NCBI GenBank assembly: GCA_025353105.1
Contig: JANXRG010000035.1
Location: 62,001-126,000, forward strand
DNA length: 64,000 nucleotides
Source of the DNA: Verrucomicrobiota bacterium
GTDB taxonomy: Bacteria; Verrucomicrobiota; Verrucomicrobiia; Chthoniobacterales; SZAS-18
Reading direction: 5' to 3'
Positions within the stretch are counted from its first letter, which is position 1; each line of letters opens with the position of its first letter. Below are positions 46,094 to 50,573 of the stretch, piece by piece. The notes under the pieces are model-generated. The model searched no databases, was not told the origin of the DNA, and saw only the letters and a program-made list of their open reading frames with translations. The position numbers were made by a program, and so were the translations under genes.

Positions 46094-46882
46094 CTAAATC
46101 CACCGCGGCTTCCCGGGCGCGCCCTCGATCAACTCGTGTTTGTGCAGCAGCCGGCCGAACTCGCCGATCGCGCGCTTCTCCGCCTCACCCAAATCGTAAC
46201 GAATGCATTGCATGAGGTAAAAGCGCGCAAATTCGGGATGGGCCCCGCCGTGCCGGCCAATCACCGCCTCCAATCGTCTCATGTTTTCCTGTTTCCATCT
46301 GCGCAGCATCCGCGCGAGCCGCGTCGCCCCCCTCACGCCCTCCCGCACGAGCCAGGCCGCGAAGACAAATGGCAGCCCGGTCATCCGGTGCCACTCCGCG
46401 CCAAGATCCAGAATTTCAAAGCGATCGCCGTGCGCCGCGCGAAAACGATTCGCCTGGTCGCCAATCAACAGCAGGCCTTCGTCCCGCCGCGGCTCGGGCG
46501 GCGTCTCCAGAACCGAAGCGTCAAAATCCTCGTACCGCGGGTGAAGCGAGTGAAACTCCGCGAGCAACACGCGCAACAGGTGCGACGACGAGCGCGACGA
46601 CGGATCGAGCCGGACGCGGCGGAGCGACTGGATCGGCCCGCGATGCGCGAGAAAAACCGAGTGCACCGACCCGTGGCACGCGATCGCGGCGCGGTCGACG
46701 ATCGCGTAATGCGGATTTCGCATCCACTCAAAGATCGGACAGAGCCCGGCGTCGAGTTCGCCCGCCGCGAGCTTGTCCGCCAACGCCGCAGGCTGATGAA
46801 AGCTGACCTCACGCGCATGGCCGTAGATCAGCGGCTTGGCGTTGAGATAGCGCACGCAGCCAATGCGGGGGAGCCGTTGCAC
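46094..46882 (-). CDS. mqnA: Chorismate dehydratase (futalosine pathway)
   Basis: Dehydrates chorismate to 3-enolpyruvylbenzoate, entry step of the futalosine menaquinone pathway. The 262 aa protein has a periplasmic-binding-protein-like fold: IGCVRYLNAKPLIYG at the N-terminus, VSFHQPAALADKLAAGELDAGLCPIFE, SSHLLRVLL and LDLGAEWHRMTGLPFVFAAWL are typical of MqnA. The start codon is GTG, 6 bp after the mqnE stop, so mqnE and mqnA are one unit. Confidence 0.92.
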   Translation of the reverse strand: MQRLPRIGCVRYLNAKPLIYGHAREVSFHQPAALADKLAAGELDAGLCPIFEWMRNPHYAIVDRAAIACHGSVHSVFLAHRGPIQSLRRVRLDPSSRSSSHLLRVLLAEFHSLHPRYEDFDASVLETPPEPRRDEGLLLIGDQANRFRAAHGDRFEILDLGAEWHRMTGLPFVFAAWLVREGVRGATRLARMLRRWKQENMRRLEAVIGRHGGAHPEFARFYLMQCIRYDLGEAEKRAIGEFGRLLHKHELIEGAPGKPRWI

Positions 46883-46888
46883 GGGGAG

Positions 46889-48034
46889 TCAGGAGGCGAG
46901 GGCTGGCTTCTCGTTCGGGGCGCCCTCCGGCCGGGTCGACGCGATGCGCCGGTAATACGAGTCACGCTGCCGTGGCTCGCGGCCGGCTTCGCGGATCGCG
47001 CGCTCGAGCGTGCCGACCGTTTGCTCCTGCGGGGTTTTCGCGCCGGCCATGTGGAAGATTTTTTCCTCCATGATCGTCCCGTGGAGGTCGTCCACGCCGT
47101 AGTTCAACGCGATTTGCGCGAGCGGCAGGCCAAGGCTCACCCAGTACGCGGTGACGTGATCGAAATTATCGAGATAGATCCGGCTCACTGCGAGATTGCG
47201 CAATTCCTCGAAGCCCGTCGCGTGACGGATGTGCCGCAGTTCCGGACGCGCGCCCTCCGGCTCGAACGCGAACGGCACGAAGCCGGTGAATCCGTGGGTC
47301 TCATCCTGCAGCTCGCGCAGGCGGCGCAGATGATCGACGCGGTGCGCGTGCGTTTCGATGTGACCGTACAGCATGGTGCAGGTGCTGCGCCCACCCAGTT
47401 GGTGCCAGGTGCGATGCACTTCGGCCCACTCGTCCGCCGTTTCCTTGCCGCGACAAATTTGATCGCGCACGACCGGGTCGAAAATTTCCGCGCCACCGCC
47501 GGTCAAGGAGCCCAGCCCGGCTTCGCGCAGCGTCTCAAGCGTTTCGCGGATCGTGCGCTTGAACACCCGCTCGGCGAGATGCCGGATCTCGACCGCCGTG
47601 AAGCATTTCAAATGCAAGTTCGGATCGAGCGCGCGCATCGCGCGCAGCAATTCGAGATACCAGTCGGACTTCAGCGTCGGGTGCAGGCCGCCGACCATGT
47701 GCACCTCCGTGATTCCCTGCTCGAGCGACGATTTCACCGTCGCGGCAATTTCTGAAATCGAATGTTCAAACGCGTGCGCCTCGCGCTTCTTCGCCCCAAA
47801 CGCGCAGAACTGGCAGGAGAGAATGCAGACGTTCGCGTAATTGATGTACCGATTGAGAATGTAGGTGGCCACGTTCCCATTCTTCCGCTCGCGCACGAGG
47901 TCTGCGATGCGGCCGAGGGCGTTGATGTCCTGGGTTGCATACAAGATGAGCGCATCGGCGTCGGACACGCGCTGCCCAACGGTCACCTTTTCGTAAATGG
48001 GCCGCAATTCGCTCGGCAGCAGGACGGAATTCAT
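46889..48034 (-). CDS. mqnE: Aminofutalosine synthase (radical SAM)
   Basis: Radical SAM enzyme joining 3-enolpyruvylbenzoate and SAM into aminofutalosine. The 381 aa protein has CILSCQFCAFGAKK (CxxxCxxC) and ITEVHMVGGLHPTL with SLTGGGAEIFDPVVRDQIC. The Glu-containing C-terminal segment VDDLHGTIMEEKIFHMAGA distinguishes MqnE from MqnC. First gene of the mqnE-mqnA pair. Its ATG is 24 bp from a CRP-type palindrome that it shares with the divergent ECF sigma gene. Confidence 0.92.
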   Translation of the reverse strand: MNSVLLPSELRPIYEKVTVGQRVSDADALILYATQDINALGRIADLVRERKNGNVATYILNRYINYANVCILSCQFCAFGAKKREAHAFEHSISEIAATVKSSLEQGITEVHMVGGLHPTLKSDWYLELLRAMRALDPNLHLKCFTAVEIRHLAERVFKRTIRETLETLREAGLGSLTGGGAEIFDPVVRDQICRGKETADEWAEVHRTWHQLGGRSTCTMLYGHIETHAHRVDHLRRLRELQDETHGFTGFVPFAFEPEGARPELRHIRHATGFEELRNLAVSRIYLDNFDHVTAYWVSLGLPLAQIALNYGVDDLHGTIMEEKIFHMAGAKTPQEQTVGTLERAIREAGREPRQRDSYYRRIASTRPEGAPNEKPALAS

Positions 48035-48057
48035 AGGCGTCGCAGCCTCACCGCGGG

Positions 48058-48077
48058 CTTGTGAAAAGTTTCACAAG
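48058..48077. promoter_or_regulatory. CRP/FNR-family type operator between mqnE and an ECF sigma gene
   Basis: CTTGTGAAA-AG-TTTCACAAG is a perfect palindrome with nine-base arms. It contains TGTGA-N6-TCACA (48060-48075), the exact consensus of CRP-type regulators. It lies 24 bp upstream of the mqnE ATG and 144 bp upstream of the sigma ATG. No CRP/FNR gene is in the window. Confidence 0.65.
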
Positions 48078-48220
48078 GAACGGTCCCACACGATGGATTT
48101 CGTGCAACCAAAAGACGCATGGCACCGTCTTTCCGTCCGGCGGATCGAAACTTTCGCGACGGGAACCGGTTTCAATTGGTTCGACTCGTGCTCTTTTCAC
48201 CGGACCGGACCACCGATTTC

Positions 48221-48823
48221 ATGGAAAGCACTGTCACCCCCGAAGCCCAGGACATCGACTGGATGCAGCGGGTGAAGCGGGGCGACCGCGACGCGTTCGC
48301 GGAGTTGGTCGAGGCGCACCAGGGGCGCGTGATTGGCACGGTGGTGCGCATGCTCGGGCCGGAGACGATGGACGCGGAGGACATTTCGCAGCAGGTATTT
48401 CTGCGGGTGTGGAAATCGGCCGCGCGCTACGAGCCGACGGCGAAATTCACGACGTGGTTGTTCACGATCACGCGCAACCTCGTCTTCAACGAGTCGCGCC
48501 GGCGCAAGAATCGACCGACCTCAAGCCTGGATGCGCCGGGCGCGGGTGGCGATGAGGACGCGAGTCCGCGGCAATTCGCGGACGAAGCGACGCCTTCGCC
48601 GGAAGCGGCGTTGCTGGAGCGGGAGATGCGGGAGGCGATTGATGCAGCGATCGCGGAGCTGCCGGAGCAGCAGCGGATGGCCGTGGTGCTGCGGCGGTAC
48701 GAAGAGATGCCATACGACGAGATCGCGCGCGTGCTTGAGCTGACGGTGCCGGCGGTGAAGAGCCTGTTGTTTCGCGCGCGGACGTTTTTGCGCGAGCGGC
48801 TGGAGAAATATCTGGCGCAGTAG
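48221..48823 (+). CDS. ECF-family RNA polymerase sigma factor (second)
   Basis: A 200 aa sigma factor from the ATG giving MESTVTPEAQDIDWMQRVKRGD; the 34 upstream residues of the track ORF lack sigma features. Region 2 has AFAELVEAHQGRVIGTVVRML, DAEDISQQVFLRVWKSA and FTTWLFTITRNLVFNESRRRKN. Region 4 has LPEQQRMAVVLRRYEEMPYDEIARVLELTVPAVKSLLFRARTFLRERL. There is an acidic Pro/Ala linker between the regions. No anti-sigma gene follows: downstream are an intergenic repeat region and the convergent dnaA. It shares its upstream region, with the CRP-type site, with mqnE. Confidence 0.92.
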   Translation: MESTVTPEAQDIDWMQRVKRGDRDAFAELVEAHQGRVIGTVVRMLGPETMDAEDISQQVFLRVWKSAARYEPTAKFTTWLFTITRNLVFNESRRRKNRPTSSLDAPGAGGDEDASPRQFADEATPSPEAALLEREMREAIDAAIAELPEQQRMAVVLRRYEEMPYDEIARVLELTVPAVKSLLFRARTFLRERLEKYLAQ

Positions 48824-49142: not shown

Positions 49143-50573
49143 TCACCGCTGCAACTGGCTGTCGAGCAGCGACACCACCTGCCGCAATTTTTCGTCCTCG
49201 CCGATCCGCTTTTTCACGAGGCGATGTCCGTGCAGCACGGTGCCGTGATCGCGGCCGCCGAACGCGTCGCCGATTTCGTTGAGCGAGCATTTCGTCAGCT
49301 CGCGCGCGAGATACATCGCCACCTGCCGCGGGAAGGCGATGTTCGCCGGCCGGCGCTTGCTCGTCATGTCGGCGAGCCGCACGTCGTAATGCTCCGCCAC
49401 GGCGCGCTGGATTTGTTCGATGGTCACGACGCGACGCGCCTCCTCCTGCAGAATGTCCTTCAGCAAATGCTCCACGCGTTCAAGCGTGAGTTCGCCGGAG
49501 CCGAGCGACGCGAACGACGCGACGCGCATCAACGCGCCCTCAAGCCGGCGGACATTCGAGCGGATCTTGCGGGCCAGAAATTCCAGGATCGCCGCGTCGA
49601 GTTTCACCTGCATCCCCTCGGCCTTCTTGCGCAGAATCGCGAGACGCGTCTCGATGTCCGGTGGCTGCAACTCGGCCGTCAGGCCCCATTCAAAGCGCGA
49701 GACGAGGCGTGCCTCCAGTCCGCCAATTTCCGCCGGCGGGCGATCGCTCGAGAGGACGATCTGTTTGTGACCGTCGAAGAGCGCGTTGAACGTGTGGAAG
49801 AATTCCTCCTGCGAGCGCTCCTTGCCCGCGAAGAACTGGATGTCATCGATCAGCAGCACGTCCGCGGCGCGGTAACGCTTCCGGAAACGGACCAGCTGGT
49901 TGTTCTGGATTGCGTCGATGAACTCGTTCGTGAACTTTTCGCTCGAGACGTAAACCACGCGGGACGTCCGTTTCCGTTCTGCAATCGTAAGTCCCACTGC
50001 CTGCATGAGATGCGTCTTCCCGAGACCGACGCCCCCGTAGATGAAGAGCGGGTTGTAGGTCTTGGACGGGGCCTGCGCGACGGCGTGCGCCGCCGCGTGC
50101 GCGAACTGGTTGTTCGGCCCCACGACGAACGTCTCAAACGTGTAGCGCGAGTTCAGCCCGGGCACGATGGGCGCCTCGACCGTTCCGTCCGCCAGCTCGG
50201 CCGGCGAAGCCATCGTGGCGGCGCGCGCGGCGATCGGCAACGCTTCCTCAAAGTGCTGTGGGATCGCACTGGCTCTCGGCTGCGATGACGCGTCGGCGAT
50301 CGTGAAGAGAATCTTGCGCGGCGCGCCGAGCACGCCGGCCACCGCCGATTGCAGCACCGCGAGATAGTTACTCTCGATCCAGAATTGATGGATGCTGTTG
50401 GGCGCGCGCAGTGTGAGGGTGTCCTCGTCGGCCTCGGCAATTTCCATCGAGGCGAACCAGCGCTGGTAGCCATCCGGGCTTAACTGCGGCCGCAGAAATT
50501 CGCCGATGCTCCGCCAGATGTCTTCATAGCGATTTGTCGCTTGGGCGGGGAACAGGGGAAGTTCTGACTCCAT
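49143..50573 (-). CDS. dnaA: Chromosomal replication initiator protein DnaA
   Basis: AAA+ initiator that binds DnaA boxes at oriC and opens the DNA. The 476 aa protein has domain I (about 15-90), a variable linker, the AAA+ domain with Walker A GGVGLGKTHL, Walker B LLIDDIQFFAGK and sensor segments. C-terminal domain IV has the signature FPRQVAMYLARELTKCSLNEIGDAFGGRDHGTVLHG. dnaN, recF and gyrB are not beside it; argA lies upstream on the same strand. A terminator-like hairpin sits just before the start codon, and there is no Shine-Dalgarno sequence in the 12 bases between. Confidence 0.96.
   Translation of the reverse strand: MESELPLFPAQATNRYEDIWRSIGEFLRPQLSPDGYQRWFASMEIAEADEDTLTLRAPNSIHQFWIESNYLAVLQSAVAGVLGAPRKILFTIADASSQPRASAIPQHFEEALPIAARAATMASPAELADGTVEAPIVPGLNSRYTFETFVVGPNNQFAHAAAHAVAQAPSKTYNPLFIYGGVGLGKTHLMQAVGLTIAERKRTSRVVYVSSEKFTNEFIDAIQNNQLVRFRKRYRAADVLLIDDIQFFAGKERSQEEFFHTFNALFDGHKQIVLSSDRPPAEIGGLEARLVSRFEWGLTAELQPPDIETRLAILRKKAEGMQVKLDAAILEFLARKIRSNVRRLEGALMRVASFASLGSGELTLERVEHLLKDILQEEARRVVTIEQIQRAVAEHYDVRLADMTSKRRPANIAFPRQVAMYLARELTKCSLNEIGDAFGGRDHGTVLHGHRLVKKRIGEDEKLRQVVSLLDSQLQR

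Follow-up and report, generated by a model that had tools for sequence, protein, structure and literature searches.

A 20-bp palindrome, CTTGTGAAA-AG-TTTCACAAG, at positions 48058-48077 of the window (the whole 64-kb stretch of DNA that was analysed) is best explained as an operator for Rex, a repressor that responds to the NADH/NAD+ balance; at this site, the NAD+-bound protein would repress mqnEA and NADH would relieve that repression. From sequence comparisons, we place the probability of this reading at about 0.93. A preliminary description of the region had assigned the palindrome to CRP. Its letters and coordinates were correct, as was its placement in the divergent region between mqnE-mqnA on the minus strand and an ECF sigma factor gene on the plus strand. 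The idea of a conserved operator at mqnEA, positioned for repression and tying quinone synthesis to a redox or respiratory signal, also held up, while CRP/FNR as the binding protein did not, given the match to the Rex consensus, the other sites in the genome, the co-occurrence of the operator with Rex, and a recognition helix that lacks the CRP arginine.

The palindrome matches a published Rex operator

The palindrome has 9-bp arms and a 2-bp centre. Its 18-bp core, TTGTGAAAAGTTTCACAA (48059..48076, no strand assigned), is a predicted Rex operator that reads TTGTGAA-N4-TTCACAA and matches exactly the consensus TTGTGAANNNNTTCACAA reported for Rex of Streptomyces avermitilis (PMC5355995). The Rex operator reported for Staphylococcus aureus is TTGTGAAW4TTCACAA (PMC2883068), from which the core departs only by one G in the W4 spacer. 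We used base composition to estimate how often such patterns arise by chance. TGTGA-N6-TCACA by itself, which occurs exactly once in the window (at 48058-48077), is not very rare, with 0.03 exact matches expected in the window and about 1.5 in the genome. In contrast, the full 18-bp operator is rare, with expectations of 3e-5 and 0.002, respectively. The genome nevertheless contains four exact copies of TTGTGAA-N4-TTCACAA against the 0.002 expected, and a reversed control pattern gave none.

One of the four exact operators is that at mqnE. The others lie between nuoD and ndh2 (encoding NDH-2), ahead of atpB in the ATP synthase operon, and beside a gene for polyprenyl diphosphate synthase. In S. 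avermitilis, Rex has been proven to target the ndh2, nuo, and atp operons (PMC5355995). At L015, the Rex operator of the polyprenyl synthase gene separates it from a divergently oriented gene for an NMT1-like periplasmic binding protein (L015:3834-4973, minus strand). A Rex-like site with one mismatch, TCGTGAAAGTTTTCACAA (L016:5009-5026), is located in the genome that carries the window, between an RpoD/RpoS-like sigma gene (minus strand) and comM (plus strand). Sites with two mismatches (C1, C13, C37, and C102) look like chance matches because they fall inside long reading frames and have no evident respiratory link.

The genome encodes a single Rex of 207 amino acids (L017:4422-5045, minus strand), with matches to PF06971, PF02629, and the NCBIfam Rex models, all above cut-off, and to Rex structures in the PDB at E of about 1e-33. 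The structural literature lists 12 DNA-contact residues for T. maritima Rex and describes some of them as variable. In an alignment matched by hand, 10 of these 12 residues were identical in our protein, including the Arg-Lys pair (QLRKDL), and both differing residues belong to the set published as variable. The NAD-binding motif GxGxxG is present as GVGNLG, and the protein combines a winged helix, the DNA-contact Arg-Lys, and an NAD(H)-binding Rossmann domain. There was no Rex operator upstream of rex itself, where the best candidate had five mismatches.

The operator accompanies mqnE in relatives

The presumed Rex target is mqnE (46889-48034, minus strand; TIGR03700, 463 bits against a cut-off of 434.6), which encodes aminofutalosine synthase of the futalosine route to menaquinone. 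Its ATG is 24 bp from the operator, a spacing given in the preliminary description and correct when counted from the 18-bp core, with GAGG between the two as a possible ribosome-binding site. The menaquinone biosynthesis gene mqnA (46094-46882, minus strand; PF02621, 137 bits; GTG start) follows after a 6-bp gap and is presumably co-transcribed with mqnE. On the other side, the ECF-type sigma factor gene (48221..48823, plus strand; Sigma70_r2 and r4, TIGR02937) most likely starts at ATG 48221, 144 bp from the operator. No evident anti-sigma gene adjoins it, and the next long frame beyond it, on the opposite strand at 49143-50573, looks dnaA-like by eye.

To follow the palindrome upstream of mqnE orthologues, as the preliminary description had proposed, we compared 79 readable upstream regions. 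Eight of these contained an exact operator and one an operator with a single mismatch, all 17-61 bp before the start of the mqnE match, showing that the palindrome is kept in relatives. Two further regions had a version with three mismatches in the same place, and the reversed control pattern never came below four mismatches. In the class sample, G099 (L220) likewise has the operator at mqnE, again with a divergent ECF gene. The ECF-mqnE pair is itself kept in about 30 loci. Among divergent ECF-mqnE loci with known Rex status, the operator was present in 7 of 10 from genomes with Rex and 0 of 15 from genomes without (p = 2.5e-4, shared ancestry ignored), and so tracks Rex rather than the sigma gene. 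Over all 50 mqnE genomes tested, the link was weaker (8/30 with Rex versus 1/20 without; p = 0.07, shared ancestry ignored) because many Rex-bearing relatives have no operator at mqnE, which is therefore a changeable member of the regulon. One locus, L026, has a perfect operator in a genome where a Rex gene was not found; that genome may be incomplete.

The preliminary description had also considered possible control of the ECF sigma gene by the palindrome, and a Rex operator could in principle act both ways, repressing the sigma factor as well as mqnEA. It lies within the shared divergent region, and the nuoD/ndh2 operator likewise sits between divergent genes, each of them a plausible target. 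However, the ECF start lies at a distance of 144 bp. In relatives, the operator is 17-61 bp from mqnE and more distant from the ECF gene, and the 15 genomes without Rex retain the ECF-mqnE pair but not the operator. As judged from these comparisons, the constant neighbour of the operator is mqnE; control of the sigma gene found no support, and we consider it unlikely that Rex regulates it.

Rex, and not CRP, predicts the operator across the class

To ask which regulator accompanies the operator, we surveyed a sample of 286 genomes of the class, scoring Rex as present when a match exceeded the Pfam cut-off and a CRP helix-turn-helix (HTH) as strong at E of about 1e-9 or better. Exact operators occurred in 75 of 95 genomes with Rex compared to 7 of 191 without (p = 2e-41, Fisher, shared ancestry ignored), and 283 of the 292 exact sites fell in Rex-bearing genomes. 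A strong CRP/FNR HTH showed no link to the operator, which was found in 24 of 77 genomes with such a domain and 58 of 209 without (p = 0.56, Fisher, shared ancestry ignored), and Rex predicted the site even where CRP was absent (53/67). Twenty Rex-bearing genomes had no exact operator, including G073, G078, G116, G181, and G206 (one genus) as well as G005, G021, and G055. In some Rex-bearing lineages, a shifted operator consensus may account for the missing exact TTGTGAAN4TTCACAA. Genome G067 has three matches to the Rex N-terminal domain, two of which (C21:29398-29538, minus strand, and C21:30010-30138, plus strand) are close together and divergent.

We also examined 60 sites in relatives, using a search pattern that fixed only TTGTGAA-N4-TTCACAA. 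In 98%, the free positions adjoining the arms were A and T; A/T also predominated at the centre. In relatives from the same order, most sites adjoin atpB, nuoD/nuoE, ndh2, or the polyprenyl synthase gene. Others are located at cydA, at nuoG, nuoH, and other complex I genes, and at multihaem cytochrome genes that by eye resemble alternative complex III.

On the CRP reading, a cAMP-dependent or other CRP-family regulator would bind TGTGA-N6-TCACA and control both mqnEA and the sigma gene. The inner 16 bp of the palindrome do fit this pattern, the same core as in the E. coli CRP operator, and the genome encodes a single CRP/FNR-type protein (L018:3736-4458), in which a cNMP-binding domain is combined with a Crp HTH, the only full CRP-type HTH that the genome contains. 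A second match to PF13545 (L012/L019:4771-5226) was weak, and the protein looks by eye to be of the DtxR/MntR type rather than CRP. The E. coli CRP consensus arm, however, is ATGTGAT, from which the outer T and inner A of the TTGTGAA arm depart. CRP uses an arginine in its recognition helix to read TGTGA, whereas FNR-like helices have the form ExxSR. The helix of the L018 protein, ATSETLSR, lacks that arginine and resembles FNR rather than CRP; a CRP/FNR-family helix suited to TGTGA, which the preliminary description had called for, was not found in the genome. The genome-wide motif scan that it had suggested yielded just four exact matches to TGTGA-N6-TCACA, each of them a full Rex-type operator, and thus gave no indication of a distinct CRP regulon of this type. 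Taken together with the lack of association across the class, these results make CRP a very improbable binder, and the palindrome is almost certainly, on the sequence evidence, a Rex binding site. Least probable of all is that the palindrome arose by chance or forms an RNA hairpin and that no protein binds it: base pairing of its arms could give a small hairpin in the leader RNA, and a promoter scan recognised no sigma-70-like promoter at 47900-48300, yet four exact sites against 0.002 expected, and the retention of the palindrome in relatives in step with Rex, leave this reading next to no weight.

The operator may double as a start codon in some relatives

At six mqnE loci from relatives (L038-L041, L050, and L058), a GTG within the operator TTGTGAAA shares the reading frame of mqnE and is its apparent start codon, with no ATG, GTG, or TTG between it and the conserved mqnE region. 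Similarly, the in-frame operator GTG is the most apparent nearby start of the polyprenyl synthase gene at L015:5012-5029, L203, L210, L214, L230, L232, and L235. Starts of this kind give N-termini such as VKNFTS or VKNFTR. At most of the polyprenyl synthase loci examined the arrangement is similar, although in some of these another GTG or TTG lies in frame further on, or the open frame extends upstream. The arrangement does not apply to the window, because its mqnE ATG is out of frame with the operator GTG. We tentatively suggest, at somewhat less than even odds, that Verrucomicrobiota Rex directly couples synthesis of the menaquinone head group (mqnE) and the polyprenyl side chain to the NADH/NAD+ ratio, and that in several relatives the 18-bp operator doubles as the translation start.

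Discussion

In the mechanism that we propose, dimeric Rex would bind just upstream of the mqnE start when NAD+ is plentiful and block transcription of mqnE-mqnA, with the NAD+-loaded protein acting on initiation or early elongation. When respiration is limited, NADH would build up and Rex would release the operator. Synthesis of the menaquinone head group would then rise in parallel with ATP synthase, complex I/NDH-2, and the enzyme for the quinone side chain. Experiments in S. aureus established that repression by Rex is enhanced by NAD+ and relieved by NADH (PMC2883068).

The operator and Rex themselves are well known, and the site is of an ordinary kind. The closest parallel is the respiratory Rex regulon of S. 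avermitilis, where the same 18-bp operator is found and the ndh2, nuo, and ATP synthase operons are targeted (PMC5355995). The system described here differs in its Verrucomicrobiota host, in the addition of the futalosine-pathway genes mqnEA and the polyprenyl diphosphate synthase gene, and in lacking an operator ahead of rex. In S. aureus, Rex governs genes that are induced under anaerobic conditions (PMC2883068), whereas the sites here adjoin genes for the respiratory chain and quinone synthesis. In the openly accessible papers searched, we found no report of Rex control of menaquinone or futalosine-pathway genes, nor of a Verrucomicrobiota Rex regulon. To judge from these papers, a Rex regulon of respiratory and menaquinone genes across a class of Verrucomicrobiota seems not to have been described before.

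Collectively, these comparisons suggest that menaquinone synthesis joins the respiratory chain and ATP synthase genes under Rex in this bacterium and its relatives, as it appears from the distribution of operators. They correct the regulator of the mqnE palindrome from CRP to Rex and lead us to propose a circuit by which redox state would set quinone supply in a phylum that has received little study.
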